A DNA stretch of 64,000 bases from Mariprofundus ferrinatatus. GTDB lineage: Bacteria > Pseudomonadota > Zetaproteobacteria > Mariprofundales > Mariprofundaceae. Position 1 is the first letter of the stretch. Each line of letters starts with the position of its first letter. The notes under the pieces are model-generated. The model was not told the origin of the DNA and searched no databases. It saw only the letters and a list, made by a program, of their open reading frames with translations. A program made the position numbers and the translations under genes. Shown one piece after another: positions 18,102 to 52,917 of the stretch. Location of the stretch: NCBI RefSeq assembly GCF_002795825.1, contig NZ_CP018800.1, positions 124,001 to 188,000 on the forward strand, in the 5' to 3' direction.

Positions 18102-18440
18102 TGGTTTGACCCGGGATGCGGGCTCCTGCCCGCCCCCTTTTACGGATCGGCAAAAGCGTCCTTTTCCCGATCCTCACAAAGATGAAAAGCGCGCTTGTCA
18201 TCTTTGGCGACACCTCCTGTGTCGCAGTTGTGAAGTTACGGGGGAGGGGCTACGGATGGCTCCTCTCCCGCCAGAAATCTGTGGGTATTGGCTGGTTCTC
18301 CCGTCGCTTGTTCGGGCGGATATGAGAACACCCGCAACCACCGGCCGCAGCGTCCGGACATGAAAGGCAACCATGAGAACACGCTGCAACATTTTGGGCA
18401 CGACCGGGAAGAGAGTCCCGCGCATGCACGGAGGTAAATG
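18102..18440 (+). other. 339-base structured spacer between nrdJ and nrdJb
   Basis: No convincing gene. Hairpins tile the first half: GCGGGC/GCCCGC followed by CCCCTTTT (18118-18138), then 18144-18173, 18178-18205, 18207-18225 (loop CTCCT), and 18241-18268 (10-bp stem). GTTCTC at 18295-18300 can pair with GAGAAC in either of two direct repeats ATGAGAACAC (18322 and 18373, 51 bases apart). A last hairpin CGGGA/TCCCG (18405-18420) sits just before the nrdJb ribosome-binding site GGAGG. This much ordered pairing between halves of one enzyme suggests a regulatory RNA or processing region; nothing known was recognised. Confidence 0.6.
18144..18232 (+). repeat. Hairpin element B between nrdJ and nrdJb (relative of element A)
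   Basis: Hairpin I is GGATCGG, mismatch, AAAAG, loop CGTC, CTTTT, mismatch, CCGATCC. After one base, CACAA (18175-18179) can pair with TTGTG (18228-18232) and encloses an extra hairpin (18180-18203) and GCGACAC, loop CTCCT, GTGTCGC (18207-18225). Order, loop bases (AAAAGCG, TCCT) and the closing helix correspond to element A at 14798-14858 on the other strand, while stem bases differ in a paired way. Confidence 0.62.
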
Positions 18441-19082
18441 ATGGCAATTAAAATCGAGAAGAAGATCACCGGTTACGAGGTGAAGAAGCCCGAGAGTGAG
18501 GCGAAAAAGGAGGAGGCGACGGTCCACCATATCGCGCCACTGCTCGAGCGCGACGATATCCTCGAAGGCAACACCTACAAGATCAAAACGCCGAACTCCG
18601 AGCACGCCATGTACATCACCATCAACGATGTCTGGGTGACCGAGCCGGATGGCTCCCGCCACCGTCGCCCGTTCGAGGTGTTCATCAACTCCAAGAACAT
18701 GGAGCACTTCATGTGGATCGTGGCGCTGACCCGCATCACTTCGGCGATCTTCCGCAAGGGCGGCGATGTCACCTTCCTGGTCGAGGAGCTGAAGGCGGTA
18801 TTCGATCCGCGCGGCGGCTACTACAAGCGCGGCGGCAAATATATGCCCTCGATCGTGGCCGAGATCGGCGAGGTGATCCAGCAGCACCTGATCTCCATCG
18901 GCATGATGGAGGGGCAGCTCAACAACGCCGAGCTGCAGGCCAAGCGTCAGGAGGCCGAAGAGAAGCTGGGCACCGATGCCGTTGCCAAAGGGCAACAGTG
19001 CGACAAGTGCGGCGCCATGGCGGTTGTAAGGCTTGATAACTGCAACTGCTGTCTCGAGTGCGGCGACAGCAAATGCGGCTAA
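18441..19082 (+). CDS. nrdJb: NrdJb, C-terminal TSCPD-type component of class II ribonucleotide reductase
   Basis: 213 aa. It matches the separate small component of split class II reductases (NrdJb of Pseudomonas), which carries the region fused at the C-terminus in one-chain NrdJ. Seen are the TSCPD-like core (HAMYITINDVWVTEPDGS ... ITSAIFRKGGDVTFLVEEL) and a C-terminal tail with cysteine pairs CDKC, CNCC and CGDSKCG that should re-reduce the active-site disulphide. GGAGG precedes paired ATGs at 18438 and 18441; the second has better spacing. The last 78 bases of the gene, with stop and terminator, are repeated at 20510-20661. Confidence 0.9.
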   Translation: MAIKIEKKITGYEVKKPESEAKKEEATVHHIAPLLERDDILEGNTYKIKTPNSEHAMYITINDVWVTEPDGSRHRRPFEVFINSKNMEHFMWIVALTRITSAIFRKGGDVTFLVEELKAVFDPRGGYYKRGGKYMPSIVAEIGEVIQQHLISIGMMEGQLNNAELQAKRQEAEEKLGTDAVAKGQQCDKCGAMAVVRLDNCNCCLECGDSKCG

Positions 19083-19156
19083 GTTACTCGCGGCTGATCA
19101 TTTGATCAGTAGCCAGTGCAAAGAAAAAGGGGAGCCATCGGCTCCCCTTTTTTCGT
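19005..19156 (+). repeat. Left copy of 152-bp direct repeat (nrdJb 3' end plus terminator)
   Basis: From within nrdJb through its stop and terminator. It aligns without gaps to 20510-20661 (constant offset 1505) with four substitutions. Two are synonymous changes in Ser and Lys codons of the tail; two fall in or near the loop of the palindrome CTGATCATTTGATCAG (19094-19109). This copy belongs to the intact gene. Confidence 0.95.
19124..19153 (+). terminator. Rho-independent terminator after nrdJb
   Basis: Stem AAAAAGGGGAGCC / GGCTCCCCTTTTT with a 3-base loop, followed by more T. Very strong. It lies inside the left direct repeat, and an identical copy is at 20629-20658. It isolates the following two-gene cassette from nrdJb transcription. 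Confidence 0.93.
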
Positions 19157-19225
19157 AAAGGCGAGAACGCAATCTTTTACCGCTTATTTGTCGAGATTGT
19201 ACCTGTGCTTTAGGCCTCTTGCACG

Positions 19226-19242
19226 ATTCGCGAATCGCGAAT
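19226..19242. promoter_or_regulatory. Perfect palindrome upstream of the HTH gene, likely operator
   Basis: ATTCGCGA-A-TCGCGAAT, an exact inverted repeat of 8 bases around one central A, ending 12 bases before the ATG at 19255. Position and symmetry suit autoregulation by the helix-turn-helix protein, as in toxin-antitoxin operons. No clear -35/-10 pair could be set with confidence. Confidence 0.6.
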
Positions 19243-19254
19243 AGCGTATGCATC

Positions 19255-19782
19255 ATGATTCTTAAACCACAGGATATCGTTGTTGTACTCAAGTTGGTGG
19301 CTCTTAAGGGGCGGCCATGGCGTTACGTACAGCTAGCTAATGAACTGGCTATGAGCGCATCGGAGATCAATGCCGGAGTCAAGCGTGCCCTGCAGGCGCG
19401 CCTGCTTGTGCAGCTTGGCCCGGATAAGCAACCAATGCCTAATCGCAAGGCGTTGGGGGAGTTTCTGATTCATGGTGTGAAATACGCCTTCCCACCGGAT
19501 CACGGCGCAATTGTCCGGGGTATGAAGACTGCCTATGCGGTTTCGCCGGTGGCCGATCAGCTGCACCTGAACGATGAGAATCCACCCGTATGGCCTCATG
19601 CTGAGGGTAAGGATCGCGGCCCATCGTTTTCGCCGCTCTACAGGTCAGTGCCGATGGCTGCAGAGCGGGATGCGGCGCTCTATGAGCTACTCGCACTGGT
19701 CGATGCTATCCGGGACGGGCGGGTCCGCGAGCGCGAAATCGCTGAAAATCTGCTGAGACAGCGGTTAAATGCATGGGCCTGA
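19255..19782 (+). CDS. Helix-turn-helix protein of an HTH/nucleotidyltransferase gene pair
   Basis: 175 aa from ATG 19255. Residues about 1-55 (ILKPQDIVVVLKLVALKG ... NELAMSASEINAGVKRAL) read as a winged helix-turn-helix of MarR-like type. The rest has conserved-looking blocks HGVKYAFPPDHG, PVWPHAEGKDRG and ALYELLALVDAIRDGR and no enzyme motif. It overlaps the nucleotidyltransferase gene by 10 bases, and a 17-base palindrome sits upstream. I recall such pairs as widespread but unnamed. An antitoxin or autorepressor role is inference from architecture similar to AbiE-type systems, not from a match to AbiEi. Confidence 0.8.
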   Translation: MILKPQDIVVVLKLVALKGRPWRYVQLANELAMSASEINAGVKRALQARLLVQLGPDKQPMPNRKALGEFLIHGVKYAFPPDHGAIVRGMKTAYAVSPVADQLHLNDENPPVWPHAEGKDRGPSFSPLYRSVPMAAERDAALYELLALVDAIRDGRVREREIAENLLRQRLNAWA

Positions 19783-20474
19783 ACAGGAACGCTAACCTGG
19801 CTATGCTAGGGCTGGTCGCTGACAGGTTGGGTGATCTGAGGGAGCAGGTGGTATTCTTGGGCGGTTGCACAACCGGCCTGCTGATTACCGATACAGCTGC
19901 GCCTGATGTGCGCGCTACGATGGATGTTGATCTGATTGTAGAGGTGGCAAGCGCTCTGGAATTTCACGATATTGAAGCAGAGATGCAAAAGAGAGGGTTC
20001 ACTCCGGATGTTGAAAGTGGCATCCGTTGTCGCTGGCGCAGCGGTGACCTTATTATCGACCTGATGCCCGATGATGAAGAGATACTTGGGTTCAGCAACC
20101 GCTGGTATAGCGATGCCATAGTCCATGCGGTTGAGGAGCGGCTGGCCGATGGCGCCGTTATCAGGCGAGTGAGCGCCCCTTACTTCATCGCAACCAAGAT
20201 TGAGGCCTTTAATGGTCGCGGTAATGGAGACTATCTGGCCAGCCATGATTTCGAGGATATCGTAACGCTGATCGATGGCCGTGAAGAGCTATACGCCGAA
20301 ATCGAAGAAAGCGATGCATTACTACGCCGCTTCATTGCATACACCTTCAAACAGTGGGCGGAAGATTCCGATCTGTTTATCGCTCTGGCCGGGCAGCTTC
20401 CTCCTGATGCAGTCAGTCAAAGCAGGTACTCGATCCTGGAACGCAAGTTCGAGGCAATCGCATCAATGGATTAG
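19773..20474 (+). CDS. Nucleotidyltransferase-fold protein, AbiEii/MenA-like
   Basis: 233 aa with the polymerase-beta-type nucleotidyltransferase core: GG at residues 30-31 (VVFLGGCTTGLLITD), Asp51-x-Asp53 (ATMDVDLIVEV) and a third acidic strand GDLIIDLMPDD (Asp96). The helical part has VSAPYFIATKIEAFNGRG and LASHDFEDIVTLIDGRE, similar to AbiEii-type toxins, which have Lys and Asp in that place. All three catalytic acids are present, so it should be active. Known relatives transfer nucleotides to tRNA or protein; the target here is unknown. It is translationally coupled to the HTH gene. Confidence 0.82.
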   Translation: MGLNRNANLAMLGLVADRLGDLREQVVFLGGCTTGLLITDTAAPDVRATMDVDLIVEVASALEFHDIEAEMQKRGFTPDVESGIRCRWRSGDLIIDLMPDDEEILGFSNRWYSDAIVHAVEERLADGAVIRRVSAPYFIATKIEAFNGRGNGDYLASHDFEDIVTLIDGREELYAEIEESDALLRRFIAYTFKQWAEDSDLFIALAGQLPPDAVSQSRYSILERKFEAIASMD

Positions 20475-20509
20475 AGCGGCTGAATAGCATGGGAACATCC
20501 GTCATGTGA

Positions 20510-20587
20510 AAGTGCGGCGCCATGGCGGTTGTAAGGCTTGATAACTGCAACTGCTGTCTCGAGTGCGGCGACAGTAAGTGCGGCTAA
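20510..20587 (+). pseudogene. Orphan 3' fragment of nrdJb
   Basis: Encodes the last residues of NrdJb (KCGAMAVVRLDNCNCCLECG and the closing CG tail) and stop, with no start codon or ribosome-binding site. Compared with the intact gene it has AGT for AGC and AAG for AAA, both silent. Silent-only divergence points to a tail that was under selection in another genome rather than decay in place. Confidence 0.85.
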
Positions 20588-20628
20588 GTTACTCGCGGCT
20601 GATCGTCTGATCAGTAGCCAGTGCAAAG

Positions 20629-20658
20629 AAAAAGGGGAGCCATCGGCTCCCCTTTTTT
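20629..20658 (+). terminator. Second copy of the nrdJb terminator
   Basis: Same stem and T-run as at 19124-19153. In its present place it ends transcription of the HTH/nucleotidyltransferase pair. Confidence 0.9.
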
Positions 20659-20753
20659 CGTCTTATCATAAACGGGAATTTCATTGAAATTTCTGCCTGG
20701 CAAAGGGTATTTCGCCTGGTACAATATAACCTTCCTTATCAAGGAGGTGCGCG

Positions 20754-20834
20754 ATGTTGAAAAAAGGCGACAGGATTTCAATTCTTCCGGAATATCGGGA
20801 CAAAGGTGATGAGCTCTATATATGGGTTGTTGTG
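20754..20834 (+). pseudogene. Truncated small conserved-type gene
   Basis: A strong ribosome-binding site AAGGAGGTG is followed by ATG and MLKKGDRISILPEYRDKGDE then LYIWVVV, which reads like the start of a family of short proteins of the type KPEYQDKGDDEFTWVVVDDE. After about residue 27 the frame runs into sequence antisense to the response regulator and loses this character. The open frame nominally continues to 21059, but that part is not credible. The 3' half seems lost by deletion at about 20830-20843. A TACAAT -10-like hexamer is at 20720-20725. Family recall is from memory and unsearched. Confidence 0.55.
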
Positions 20835-20843
20835 TGTCAGGCG

Positions 20844-21308
20844 CTATGCGGGTCGTTTGTTTCTGTCACACTCGAAACAGTTTATAGGGCACTTCCAGGA
20901 CTCATCCGGTGCGCCGCCGCGAACATCCCCTCCCGCGTCAGGGGCGCCATCCATCGCATGGCACTTGGCCAGCGTGGTCACCAGCTGTTCAATGTCCGCA
21001 GGGTTGAAAGGCTTGCCGATAAACTGACAGGTGCGCAGGCCGGGGGGCTTCTCCTGTGAATAACCGGAGATGGTGACAATGCGCTGTTCGGGATAACGCC
21101 TGTGGATCTCTTCAATCATCTCATAGCCGCTCATCTCCGGCATCCTGATATCAGTGAATACACAGATGGGCCGGGTGAACCCCGGGCTTTCCATGTAGCT
21201 CAGGTATTGTAGCGGGCAGGCAAACGATTCGACCCCATGGCCTAGAAGGATGAGTAATTCGCTGAGGAACTCGCGAATATAGTTATCATCATCCACTATA
21301 TGAAACAT
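20844..21308 (-). CDS. Orphan single-domain response regulator with cysteine-rich tail
   Basis: 154 aa. Residues 1-120 are a receiver domain: acidic pocket VDDDN (6-8), phospho-acceptor Asp53 (VFTDIRMPEMSGYEM), Thr/Ser switch region VTISGY and Lys in FIGKPF. There is no output domain. A tail of about 30 residues ends SWKCPINCFECDRNKRPA with Cys spaced CxxxCxxC, which could bind metal. No histidine kinase is adjacent. The 3' end abuts the truncated gene on the opposite strand, which suggests a rearrangement joined them. Confidence 0.85.
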   Translation of the reverse strand: MFHIVDDDNYIREFLSELLILLGHGVESFACPLQYLSYMESPGFTRPICVFTDIRMPEMSGYEMIEEIHRRYPEQRIVTISGYSQEKPPGLRTCQFIGKPFNPADIEQLVTTLAKCHAMDGAPDAGGDVRGGAPDESWKCPINCFECDRNKRPA

Positions 21309-21498
21309 CTCTTCAGGGTCTTCTCAATCGGACGATTATTCAACCACATGTTTTTGTCGGGAATGGAGATAATGGGGGCGGTCAACGCACTCGCGAAGCG
21401 GTATTTTGCGGCCCGGCCCGAATCGGCCAGTGCAAAACAGGGGCGGGACGTTAGGGTTCGCCCGATTTTCCACCCCGCGACACGAGAGAGAGAACCCT

Positions 21499-21780
21499 AT
21501 GACACCTGATGATTTGACCATCGATTTTGAAGAGGGCGGTATCCTTACCACCAAGCAGCTGGACAAAGTAATCCTCAGCAAGGGGGCATGGACCACGATT
21601 ATGTTCCGCTATGCGAACTGGGATTTTAAAACCGAAGCCTACGGTGAGGACAAGTTCACCATCCGCCGCTACCAGAAGCGTAACGGCGAATATGTGCCCC
21701 GCTCCAAGTTCAATATCACCAACGCCAAGCAGGCGAAGATGATTGTCGAAGCGCTTAACGGCTGGATTGAAGAGCAATAA
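21499..21780 (+). CDS. Small hypothetical protein, 93 aa
   Basis: Starts MTPDDLTIDFEEGGILTTKQ after GAGAGAG. Contains the run WTTIMFRYANWDFKTEAYGE, then TIRRYQKRNGEYVPRSKFNI and NAKQAKMIVEALNGWIEEQ, an alpha/beta pattern with a basic centre. No signal peptide or known motif. It is followed by a clear terminator, which supports a real gene. An upstream in-frame extension to 21406 has no ribosome-binding site and is not used. Function unknown. Confidence 0.75.
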   Translation: MTPDDLTIDFEEGGILTTKQLDKVILSKGAWTTIMFRYANWDFKTEAYGEDKFTIRRYQKRNGEYVPRSKFNITNAKQAKMIVEALNGWIEEQ

Positions 21781-21807: not shown

Positions 21808-21835
21808 AAAAAGGGAGCCATTCGGCTCCCTTTTA
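21808..21835. terminator. Bidirectional terminator
   Basis: Stem AAAAGGGAGCC / GGCTCCCTTTT with loop ATTC. It serves the 93-aa gene on the plus strand and directly follows the stop codon of the 47-aa gene on the minus strand. Confidence 0.88.
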
Positions 21836-21979
21836 TTATACCCGGTCAGCCTGAATACGTTGCGGCTCTCCTGAATGGGCCTGGGCCGATTTTTTGGCCT
21901 TCTTTGCTGCTCTCTTTTCTTTATTCGTCAAAACTGCGTGCTTCTTACCTTCTCTGCTGTTTTTATGTTCTTTGCTCAT
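21836..21979 (-). CDS. 47-residue highly basic small protein
   Basis: Short gene on the minus strand: CCAGGAGC lies 9-14 bases before the ATG and the stop runs into a terminator. The product begins MSKEHKNSREGKKHAVLTNK and continues EKRAAKKAKKSAQAHSGEP, ending QRIQADRV; about a third of residues are Lys or Arg. It is predicted to be disordered or helical with nucleic-acid or ribosome affinity, which is inference from charge. Ribosome-binding site, start, stop and terminator together make it likely real. Confidence 0.7.
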   Translation of the reverse strand: MSKEHKNSREGKKHAVLTNKEKRAAKKAKKSAQAHSGEPQRIQADRV

Positions 21980-49712: not shown

Positions 49713-50996
49713 ATGCCGATTGATCTGTTTATGACTCAGCTCTCTCCAACAATGACCGAAGGGCGTATTGCCCGCTGGCTGAAGAAGGAGGGGGATACAC
49801 TGGAATCGGGAGAGATCCTGGCAGAGGTGGAGACCGATAAAGCGACCATGGAGATGGAGGTGGTTGAAGAGGGTGTCCTGCACAAAATCATCTCCCCCGA
49901 AGGTTCCGTGGTTCCCGTCGGCAGTGTGATCGCCGTGATTGCGGAAGAGGGTGAAGATGTACCTGCCGATTATGTTCCGGAAGGAGGAGGGGCTGCAGCG
50001 CAAACCCCGGTCGCGCAGACAGAGGTCGAAGCGCCAGCTGTTGCTGCAGTGGCCGGGAAGGCTCCTGCTGCTGCACCGGCACCCGTAGCTAAAAAAGGTC
50101 GTATCAAGGCCAGCCCGCTGGCGCGCAGGCTTGCCAAACAGAAGGGTATTAATCTGGCCGCGATTACAGGCACAGGCCCAAATGGTCGTATCACCCGATC
50201 CGATGTCGAGAGTGCGGTCAGGCGTGGCATCAATATCGGGGGGAATGCTCCTGCTGTTGTCGCACCTCCGTCGAGGCCATTACCGGCGGGGCCACTGCCC
50301 TACCACGAAGATGAGTTCGAGCGCATTGAGAACTCCATGATGCGCAAGGCGATTGCCCGTCGACTGAGCGAGTCGAAGCAGCAGGTGCCGCACTTCTACC
50401 TGAGCCTCGATGTGGCAATGGATCGCCTGATGGATCTCAGGGCGCAGCTCAATGAAGCGGCAGATGGTGCTTTCAAGCTCAGCGTGAATGATTTTATTAT
50501 CAAAGCCGTGGCAAAAGCGCTGGCTGACGTGCCTGCTGCCAATGCCAGCTGGACAGACAGCCATACCCTGCAACACAAACATGCCCATATCTCGGTGGCG
50601 GTAGCCATAGAGGGTGGCCTGATTACCCCGGTGATTCGATTCGCCGAACAGAAGGGGATTGCCGACATCTCTGCCGAAGTGAAAGAGCTTGCTACGCGAG
50701 CGCGAGCCGGCGCACTGCAGCCGGAGGAGTATTCGGGCGGCACTTTCTCGATCTCAAATCTCGGCATGTATGGCATCAGTCAGTTTGCTGCGATTGTAAA
50801 CCCGCCGGAGGGGGCGATTCTCGCTGTTGGTGCTACCGAAGAGCGCGCTGTGGTTGAAAATGGCGCGGTTGGCGTAAAGAAGATGATGACACTGACCCTC
50901 TCCTGCGATCACCGCGTGGTGGATGGCGCGGTCGGAGCCGAATTCATGGCCGCCCTGAAGAAGCATATCGAAATGCCTGCCAGTGTGCTTATCTAG
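49713..50996 (+). CDS. pdhC: Pyruvate dehydrogenase E2, dihydrolipoamide acetyltransferase
   Basis: 427 aa. One lipoyl domain (about 1-80, lipoyl-Lys in ETDKATMEMEV), Ala/Pro linker, peripheral-subunit-binding domain (KASPLARRLAKQKGINLAAI), second linker, and catalytic domain with HFYLSLDVAMDRL and active-site CDHRVVDGAVGAEF. Transfers acetyl to CoA. GGGGAAA ribosome-binding site just upstream; nine bases after pdhB. Confidence 0.96.
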   Translation: MPIDLFMTQLSPTMTEGRIARWLKKEGDTLESGEILAEVETDKATMEMEVVEEGVLHKIISPEGSVVPVGSVIAVIAEEGEDVPADYVPEGGGAAAQTPVAQTEVEAPAVAAVAGKAPAAAPAPVAKKGRIKASPLARRLAKQKGINLAAITGTGPNGRITRSDVESAVRRGINIGGNAPAVVAPPSRPLPAGPLPYHEDEFERIENSMMRKAIARRLSESKQQVPHFYLSLDVAMDRLMDLRAQLNEAADGAFKLSVNDFIIKAVAKALADVPAANASWTDSHTLQHKHAHISVAVAIEGGLITPVIRFAEQKGIADISAEVKELATRARAGALQPEEYSGGTFSISNLGMYGISQFAAIVNPPEGAILAVGATEERAVVENGAVGVKKMMTLTLSCDHRVVDGAVGAEFMAALKKHIEMPASVLI

Positions 50997-51075: not shown

Positions 51076-52917
51076 ATGCCGATTGATCTGTTTATGACCC
51101 AGTTGTCCCCGACCATGACCGAAGGACGTATTGCCCGCTGGCTGAAGAAAGAGGGCGATGAACTTGTTTCCGGCGAAGTGCTGGCTGAGATCGAGACCGA
51201 CAAGGCGACCATGGAGATGGAGGTTGTCGACGAGGGTATCCTGCACAGGATTCTTGAGCCTGAAGGTTCGATCGTCGCAGTGGGTGCCCCGATCGCCGTA
51301 ATTCGCGAAGAGGATGAAGATGTCGCCGACGATTATGAGCCTGACGGCCTGACCCCTGACCGGGCGATCGAGATCAGGGAGGATGAGGAGTCTGAAGAGG
51401 CGGACACACTCGGGGCTGAGTCGGTGCCGGACATGCACCCGGCTTCCATTACCTCGCATGCGGTGCACGATGCTGATGAGGCGGAGACGCTGCATCTAAA
51501 ATCTGCCGGTCTGTTCAATCCCGATGGAGAGTATGATGTTGTGGTGATCGGTGCCGGGCCAGGCGGATACGTGGCTGCGATTCGGGCTGCTCAGCTTGGC
51601 ATGAAGGTGGCATGTATCGAGTCGACCCATCTGGGCGGTATCTGCCTGAACTGGGGCTGCATCCCGACCAAGGCGCTTCTGCGCACTGCCGAAGTGATTA
51701 ACATCATCAAGCATAGTGGTGATGTGCTGGGTATCGGGGTGAGCGAAGCCAACCCCGATCTCGACAAGGCGGTGGCACGATCGCGTACCATCTCCGAGAA
51801 GCTCAACAAGGGAATCGGTTTCCTGTTTAAGAAGAATAAGGTGACCCATATCGAGGGATACGCCTCATTCGAGGCCGGCAACAGATTGATGGTCAAAGAC
51901 AGCGAAGGTAATTCGCAGCAGGTCACGGCCAAGCATGTGATTGTTGCGACTGGAGCCCGCGCCCGCGCTTTCCCGGGTATGGAGGTCGACCATGAGGTGG
52001 TCATCACCTATAAGCAGGCACTTGCCCCGAAGGCACTGCCCGAAAAGCTGGTGGTGATCGGCTCCGGTGCCATCGGCATGGAATTCGCCTATTTCTACAA
52101 GGCGATGGGCTCCGATGTGACTGTGATTGAGGCGGCAGATCAGATTCTGCCTTTGGAGGATCACGAAATTTCCCGTGTGGTTGAGCGCAGCTTCAAGAAG
52201 CAGAAGATCAAGATCATTACCGGCGCCATGGTATCTTCGGCTAAGAACGTGGATGGCAAGGCAGTCGTCGAGTATGAGTCCAAGGGCAAGAGAGAGACGG
52301 TTGAGGGCGATGTCTGCCTGGTGGCGGTCGGTGTGATTGGTAATACCGATGCCATTGGTGCGGAGAACACCGCCATGCAGATTGAGCGCAACACCATTGC
52401 GGTTGACGACTGGTACCGTACCGATCATCCGGGCATCTATGCGATCGGTGACGTGGTGGGGGCCCCTGCACTGGCGCATGTGGCAAGCCATGAGGGCATT
52501 GTCTGCGTCGAGGCTATTGCCGGTAAACATCCGCACCCGGTCGATTATGGAAATGTGCCGGGCTGCACCTACTGCCAGCCGCAGGTGGGGTCATGCGGAA
52601 AGACCGAGAGGCAGTGTAAGGATGAGGGAATCCCCTACAAGGTCGGCCGAATGCCTTACGGCACCAACGGCAAGGCGATGGGGCTGGCTGAGACCGAGGG
52701 TATGGTCAAAACGATCTTCCACGCCGAATCCGGGGAGCTGCTCGGTGCACATATCGTAGGGGCAGAGGCGACCGAGATGATCGTTTCGCTTGGTGTTGCC
52801 AAGACGCTTGAAACCACTGAAGCGGAGCTGGCACACCACATGTTCCCGCATCCGACACTGTCGGAGATGATCCACGAGTCGGTGCTCGATTCCGACGACC
52901 GGGCGATTCACATTTAA
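51076..52917 (+). CDS. lpdA: Dihydrolipoamide dehydrogenase (E3) with N-terminal lipoyl domain
   Basis: 613 aa, longer than plain E3 by an N-terminal lipoyl domain (about 1-80). The first 28 residues are identical to those of the E2 lipoyl domain encoded upstream. An acidic linker of about 70 residues follows, then E3: FAD motif VIGAGPGGYVAAIRAAQLG, redox disulphide GGICLNWGCIPTKALLR, NAD domain VVIGSGAIGMEFAYFYKAMG and the catalytic His-Glu HPTLSEM. It regenerates lipoamide with NAD+. ATG 51076 follows GAGGTGGAAG. Confidence 0.95.
   Translation: MPIDLFMTQLSPTMTEGRIARWLKKEGDELVSGEVLAEIETDKATMEMEVVDEGILHRILEPEGSIVAVGAPIAVIREEDEDVADDYEPDGLTPDRAIEIREDEESEEADTLGAESVPDMHPASITSHAVHDADEAETLHLKSAGLFNPDGEYDVVVIGAGPGGYVAAIRAAQLGMKVACIESTHLGGICLNWGCIPTKALLRTAEVINIIKHSGDVLGIGVSEANPDLDKAVARSRTISEKLNKGIGFLFKKNKVTHIEGYASFEAGNRLMVKDSEGNSQQVTAKHVIVATGARARAFPGMEVDHEVVITYKQALAPKALPEKLVVIGSGAIGMEFAYFYKAMGSDVTVIEAADQILPLEDHEISRVVERSFKKQKIKIITGAMVSSAKNVDGKAVVEYESKGKRETVEGDVCLVAVGVIGNTDAIGAENTAMQIERNTIAVDDWYRTDHPGIYAIGDVVGAPALAHVASHEGIVCVEAIAGKHPHPVDYGNVPGCTYCQPQVGSCGKTERQCKDEGIPYKVGRMPYGTNGKAMGLAETEGMVKTIFHAESGELLGAHIVGAEATEMIVSLGVAKTLETTEAELAHHMFPHPTLSEMIHESVLDSDDRAIHI

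Follow-up and report, generated by a model that had tools for sequence, protein, structure and literature searches.

A two-gene PDC-M21 module stands between two copies of the end of nrdJb in the window, i.e., the whole 64,000-nt stretch of Mariprofundus ferrinatatus DNA analysed here, and modules of the same family lie between direct repeats of other host sequences in other genomes. This architecture, the identity of the module and its recurrence are observed directly, as are an unoccupied site in one parallel case and a mostly silent divergence of the repeat copies in three cases. The recurrence of modules between duplicated gene ends points to capture by ordinary recombination without an integrase, and we consider additive, integrase-free integration of foreign DNA at the nrdJb tail to be the best explanation, one held with rather more belief than doubt.

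The question behind these loci is how small defence or toxin-antitoxin modules travel from one chromosome to another without a transposase. If our explanation is true, duplicated ends with a silent signature of another lineage would be a readable scar that could be counted in any genome collection, and insertions at gene ends without gene breakage would be explained. The arrangement of a cargo between two copies of a gene end is already known for restriction-modification genes and has been produced by experiment in E. coli; what is new is the class of cargo, the recurrence within one lineage and the allelic signature.

The duplicated nrdJb tail

The features of the locus are as follows.

18438..19082, + strand: nrdJb, C-terminal subunit of the split adenosylcobalamin (class II) ribonucleotide reductase, 214 aa (PF12637 TSCPD, E 7e-10)
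19005..19156, + strand: left (proximal) repeat copy, continuous with intact nrdJb
19124..19153, + strand: intrinsic terminator GGGGAGCC-ATC-GGCTCCCC-T6, by predicted fold
19224..19237, no strand: perfect palindrome CGATTCGCGAATCG just upstream of gene A
19255..19782, + strand: gene A, PDC-M21A, winged helix-turn-helix, 175 aa (PADLOC PDLC04515, E 1.6e-46)
19773..20474, + strand: gene B, PDC-M21B, nucleotidyltransferase, 233 aa (PADLOC PDLC04516, E 1.7e-72)
20510..20661, + strand: right (distal) repeat copy with nrdJb tail, stop, hairpin and terminator, starting 35 nt past the gene B stop
20662..21405, no strand: interval from the right repeat to orf21.4k, with a small ORF from 20754 and a response-regulator gene (20844-21308, minus strand, PF00072)
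21406..21780, + strand: conserved gene orf21.4k, a frequent follower of nrdJb in the genus and right border of the variable interval, with its own terminator at 21808-21837

The sequence-only reading had reported two ungapped 152-nt copies at an offset of 1505 with four differences, and our realignment has returned exactly this pair, 19005-19156 and 20510-20661 (97.4% identity, self-BLAST E ~1e-68). Its account of the content, namely the last 25 codons of nrdJb, the stop and the terminator, with two silent differences and two in a hairpin loop, is likewise borne out, the hairpin lying with the intrinsic terminator behind the stop. The differences at 19070 C/20575 T and 19073 A/20578 G are silent (AGC/AGT for Ser and AAA/AAG for Lys), while those at 19100 A/20605 G and 19102 T/20607 C fall within the 4-nt loop of the 3'UTR hairpin. 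Both copies have an identical predicted fold of -37.9 kcal/mol, and the right one probably ends the transcript of gene B.

Outside the two copies the flanks share no sequence, and a whole-genome search has found no third copy of the 152-nt repeat in the 2.30-Mb single-contig genome, where the other matches are only short terminator-like stretches at C1:1131351 and 446012. At the former (G000:C1:1131351-1131417), 67 nt match the 3'UTR hairpin and terminator of nrdJb and adjoin another nucleotidyltransferase-like gene. The inverted repeat of the terminator core has 5 copies in the genome, 3 of them inside 2.7 kb at the locus. Recombination on terminator sequence only was considered, as the GGGAGCC terminator occurs 5 times in the genome, and was rejected because it leaves 75 coding nt of the repeat unexplained. 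At the four variable sites the relatives are too divergent to tell the native tail from the other.

The module between the repeats

Genes A and B overlap by 10 nt (19773-19782), and alignment makes the ATG at 19255 the likeliest start of gene A, rather than that of the longer TTG ORF at 19219. Both genes match their PDC-M21 models strongly and stand adjacent and in order. Gene A itself has no Pfam match, whereas half of its family members match MarR_2, TrmB or HTH models; its structural model (pLDDT 78) has an N-terminal winged helix-turn-helix, and it is predicted to be an antitoxin and autorepressor. The palindrome CGATTCGCGAATCG, a similar form of which precedes gene A in most relatives, is likely the operator or promoter of the module.

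In gene B the motif GG..D51xD53...D96 is invariant in an alignment with 18 relatives. AbiEii (PF08843) matches 9 of 11 members of the family, while gene B stays below the cut-off (19.2 versus 22.5 bits). Its structural model (pLDDT 88) finds the MenT1 toxin as best PDB matches (8an5/8rr5), with a TM score of only ~0.45. We predict gene B to be a nucleotidyltransferase toxin, and the two genes together to be a toxin-antitoxin or abortive-infection pair, that is, a candidate defence module.

The third gene of the system, M21C, is missing, as the repeat begins 35 nt past the B stop and no such ORF follows. No integrase or recombinase is present in or beside the two-gene unit, in agreement with the earlier observation that none lies inside. 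PDC-M21B is carried by many other bacteria and by 116 plasmids; it is absent from 50,697 phage records, and carriage by phage was accordingly rejected. Genes A and B are followed by a third gene in most of the plasmid loci viewed, and in both loci scanned (Duffyella and Agrobacterium) this gene is the PP2C-like PDC-M21C. On small plasmids of Acinetobacter (L212, L213, L216) M21 A and B are again followed by a third gene, annotated as a phosphatase in 2 of 3, a context typical of plasmid-stabilising modules. We have found no report on PDC-M21 in the literature, most subscription journals lying outside the coverage of the search.

nrdJb and its variable 3' flank

Besides its Pfam domain, nrdJb matches the NCBIfam model for the C-terminal part of B12-dependent ribonucleotide reductase, and its orthologs within the genus show 80-93% identity. 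The DNA 3' of the gene differs between nearly all species (18 relatives viewed in detail, the comparison set for this locus being relatives at the species level). Where orf21.4k is found, the gap between nrdJb and this gene ranges from ~100 nt or less (G009) to ~30 kb (G001). The relatives have a single nrdJb tail, but different downstream DNA: in the stretches read after nrdJb no second tail has been found, and a tblastn search of 20 loci around nrdJb or the cassette has not found the interval 20662..21405 beside nrdJb.

In G001 (C1 ~2343000-2369700, L137/L138) the ~30-kb insert that separates nrdJb from its usual neighbour has TniQ directly after nrdJb, TniA/B/Q ~22-26 kb further, and also a serine recombinase and a MobA-type relaxase. 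A weak TnsE-like gene occupies the same place in G015. The nrdJb 3' end may be an attachment site for Tn7-like elements. That the 152-nt blocks are the attachment site of such a large element was considered and rejected, as the ~30-kb TniA/B/Q insert of G001 has no duplicated tail. M21 genes also occur near nrdJb at other positions, in G009, G008 (gene A only), G012 (inverted, with a frameshifted B) and G004.

The sequence-only reading held that a duplicated tail without cargo, or cargo without a duplicated tail, would argue for an old local duplication. Judged by this, the outcome is mixed: at none of the 18 nrdJb loci viewed is the tail duplicated in the absence of cargo, and the cargo does occur in relatives away from any nrdJb tail, at other places and in several of them with flanking repeats of its own. 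The suggestion that nrdJb is a special landing site is not upheld: variable as its 3' flank is in Mariprofundus, nrdJb is one target among many.

Recurrence of the cassette between direct repeats

At 9 of 16 loci in Zetaproteobacteria, PDC-M21 is flanked on both sides by directly repeated host sequence (44-169 nt, another sequence at each locus), a count that includes G022, where the repeat is further out, and that becomes 6 of 16 if three terminator-only cases are dropped (G008, G009, G012), whose short repeats might partly reflect similar terminators. The repeats around M21 modules in individual genomes are listed below, where the target genes are named by our own reading of the sequence and not from database results.

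G009: 47 nt, terminator
G008: 55 nt, terminator
G012: 44 nt, terminator
G047: 115 nt around a gene start
G061: 107 nt, gene 5' end
G046: 51 nt near the 3' end of an mnmA-like gene
G031: 108 nt
G022: 169 nt of a NERD-type gene
G136: 89 nt, tRNA 3' end with terminator
G222: 402 nt of an FMN-dependent lactate-dehydrogenase-like gene

In most cases the right repeat starts 6-65 nt past the module. Repeats within 450 nt of the cassette are seen at 9 of 26 M21 loci versus 2 of 268 random 1.2-kb windows (Fisher p 4e-9, only a guide because the loci are not fully independent), and 8 of the 9 positives are from Zetaproteobacteria. There, the 9 of 16 M21 loci also exceed the 1 of 21 found for acetyltransferase loci (p 7e-4). 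Outside Zetaproteobacteria, 2 of 23 M21 loci lie between repeats by one pipeline, and none of the 12 plasmid loci does. Overall, the view that a unit has been inserted, rather than that the repeat arose by chance, is supported.

Two further loci show variants of the arrangement. In G008 (L034) gene A alone remains between the terminator repeats and gene B is gone, as would be expected if the antitoxin outlives the toxin. A defence island of G003 (L098, G003:C4:770000-781000) holds chained duplicated gene fragments, among them an antitoxin-like gene end and a 'FFRPYRHPQSSCDIWGG' family gene, around M21 and another HTH/nucleotidyltransferase pair; it looks like the product of repeated additive insertions. 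An integron cassette array was rejected for this island, where the repeats are gene fragments and reading by eye has found no integron signature.

Other toxin-antitoxin families with the same scar

The same test in the same class has given 4 of 20 for AbiEii, 2 of 22 for ParE (ParDE) and 1 of 21 for an acetyltransferase family. Pooled, all three toxin-antitoxin families, M21 among them, reach 12 of 53 versus 1 of 21 for the acetyltransferases; as p is 0.06, specificity for addictive cargo is only suggestive. In G053, ParDE has an intact DsbA-like gene on one side and, on the other, a 458-nt repeat made up of the final 404 nt of that gene and 54 nt more. In G070, the 3' portion of a tRNA-Met (called by ARAGORN) is present with its terminator on either side of AbiE, one copy being inside the intact tRNA; no clean unoccupied site is available for this case, the flanks having diverged in G069 and G071. 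ParDE or AbiE between 91-458-nt repeats of gene or tRNA ends has been seen in other Zetaproteobacteria (L152, L165, L185, L187). A systematic report of such scars at toxin-antitoxin modules was not found in a search whose coverage left out most subscription journals, while direct repeats next to a toxin-antitoxin pair are noted in one study of mycoplasma (PMC8562856).

Unoccupied site and allelic signature

The clearest parallel is the AbiE locus of G009, whose target gene is single-copy in G008 and G001, with AbiE absent and the same distal flank 129-604 nt further. In G009 the order is the complete native gene, AbiE, a 206-nt second gene end and then ~730 nt of other DNA. The last codons of the extra tail are unlike those of the native copy, of G008 and of G001.

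We have compared silent and replacement changes between repeat copies, for which, by our own estimate, a freely drifting local copy would approach a pN/pS of ~0.5 or more (one copy neutral and one constrained). The two copies in G009 differ by 13 silent and 5 replacement changes and those of the pirin-like gene in G075 by 9 silent and 3 replacement changes (pN/pS 0.10 in each), whereas the nrdJb tails of the window have 2 silent and 0 replacement changes, a pN/pS of 0 that is weak alone with two changes only. As the divergence in these three cases is nearly only silent, the second tail has the look of an allele that came from a different strain or species. In at least two cases, then, and probably in the window too, each copy appears to have spent its past as the functional end of a gene in a lineage of its own, and the earlier proposal that the right copy evolved under selection in a relative is backed to this extent. 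On the other hand, copy divergence is mixed or decayed in G053, G046, G061, G022 and G222, and G053, G022, G222 and G047, with pN/pS of at least 0.4 or frameshifts, fit the decay of a local copy equally well.

Proposed mechanism and alternatives

For a cargo between two alleles of the same gene end, additive integration is the simplest event. A fragment with the M21 module beside an nrdJb tail would have entered the cell from another strain or species. It would then have recombined homologously with the chromosomal nrdJb tail, by one crossover if it had circularised, or else with one homologous and one illegitimate end. The product would be nrdJb tail, M21 and second nrdJb tail, and the nrdJb frame would be kept because either tail allele is functional. 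Such closely spaced repeats should tend to collapse, RecA-dependent loss being possible; the module may persist because cells that lose the addictive pair of toxin (the nucleotidyltransferase) and antitoxin (the winged helix-turn-helix protein) would be poisoned, which suggests addiction as a filter on the surviving recombination products. We infer the single-crossover route, the donor, the toxicity and the addiction. In E. coli, incoming DNA circularises and recombines by a recA-dependent single crossover, giving gene-end duplications of 109-950 nt (PMC3240628), and a one-sided model has been proposed for effector-immunity modules of Vibrio (PMC5361080).

The sequence-only reading had left two options, a mini-element restoring the gene 3' end and recombination that hitched cargo to the tail. 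The latter fits better because the same cargo is found between unrelated repeats, at gene 5' ends (G061, G047) and at bare terminators (G009, G012), and therefore no single site-specific element explains all cases. The event is thus probably recombinational capture and not a special nrdJb element. An integrative element is still to be weighed in the form of a CIME-like relic, in which the 152-nt blocks would be att sites of a lost integrase that restored the nrdJb 3' end. A target at a gene 3' end, an intact frame and silent differences, all present here, are typical of tyrosine-recombinase attachment sites; M21 in G136 and AbiE in G070 lie at tRNA 3' parts, and the DNA 3' of nrdJb varies across the genus, with a Tn7-like element there in G001. 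This relic is nevertheless improbable in our judgement: an integrase is absent in or beside the unit, the flanking blocks differ per genome and include gene 5' ends, the repeats hug both genes so that precise trimming would have been needed many times over, and the G001 insert at nrdJb has no duplicated tail. Among the species-level relatives no attachment site common to a related integrase-bearing element was found.

A strict insertion with long target duplication, in which a transposition-like or repair process copies 50-400 nt of the target, deserves more weight, while being unlikely. Such a process has been proposed for restriction-modification genes in Helicobacter, with an identical architecture, long variable repeats of ~100 bp and addictive cargo (PMC3874152, PMC3031569, PMC1643837). 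The 6-65 nt between module and right repeat in most cases and the diversity of targets fit it as well. Against it, the copies in the window, G009 and G075 differ nearly only silently, and the different C-terminus of the extra copy in G009 is unexpected for a drifting local copy. An ancient tandem duplication that arose locally at the nrdJb tail and only later, by an unrelated event, received the gene pair between its copies would be compatible with the window taken alone and its two coding differences; it is very improbable, as a duplicated tail lacking cargo is absent from the nrdJb loci read in relatives, the right copy shows no decay, and the repeats around the same cargo elsewhere would be coincidence.

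Additive integration may also be extended to Zetaproteobacteria at large, where addictive two-gene modules would spread without an integrase and use the carried gene end as homology handle. A circle of gene end and cargo would loop out by RecA and re-enter relatives at the same gene end, and addiction would stabilise the merodiploid. This broader scheme is a speculation that we think unlikely.

Relation to known systems

In Neisseria, minimal mobile elements are small gene units swapped between conserved genes by homologous recombination. The exchange of a small unit in this way is common to both; duplicated gene tails are not known to belong to the definition of those elements.

Restriction-modification genes inserted with long target duplication (Nobusato 2000 and Furuta 2010, as described in the citing papers PMC3874152, PMC3031569 and PMC1643837) resemble the present loci in their small addictive unit, long variable target repeats and lack of a recombinase. 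Repeats on the order of 100 bp are also found in our cases (152 nt here, 44-402 nt elsewhere). The differences from that system are that the cargo is PDC-M21A/B and not a restriction-modification system, and that the second copy behaves as an allele of another lineage. In the single-crossover products of E. coli conjugation, a gene-end duplication of variable length (109-950 nt) likewise brackets foreign DNA; that case is a laboratory construct, unlike the natural loci with preserved cargo here (PMC3240628).

As to the cargo, the module shares the order of A and B with PDC-M21, which PADLOC lists as a candidate system of phage defence, and lacks the PP2C-like M21C of other bacteria and plasmids. 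It is like AbiE type IV toxin-antitoxin systems and MenAT in having an HTH regulator followed by a nucleotidyltransferase with the catalytic motif, MenT1 being the best structural match, and unlike AbiE in that gene B is under the Pfam AbiEii cut-off and gene A has no AbiEi match.

Elsewhere in the window, 49713-49974 and 51076-51337 form another direct repeat, of 262 nt with 77% identity and 1.1 kb apart.
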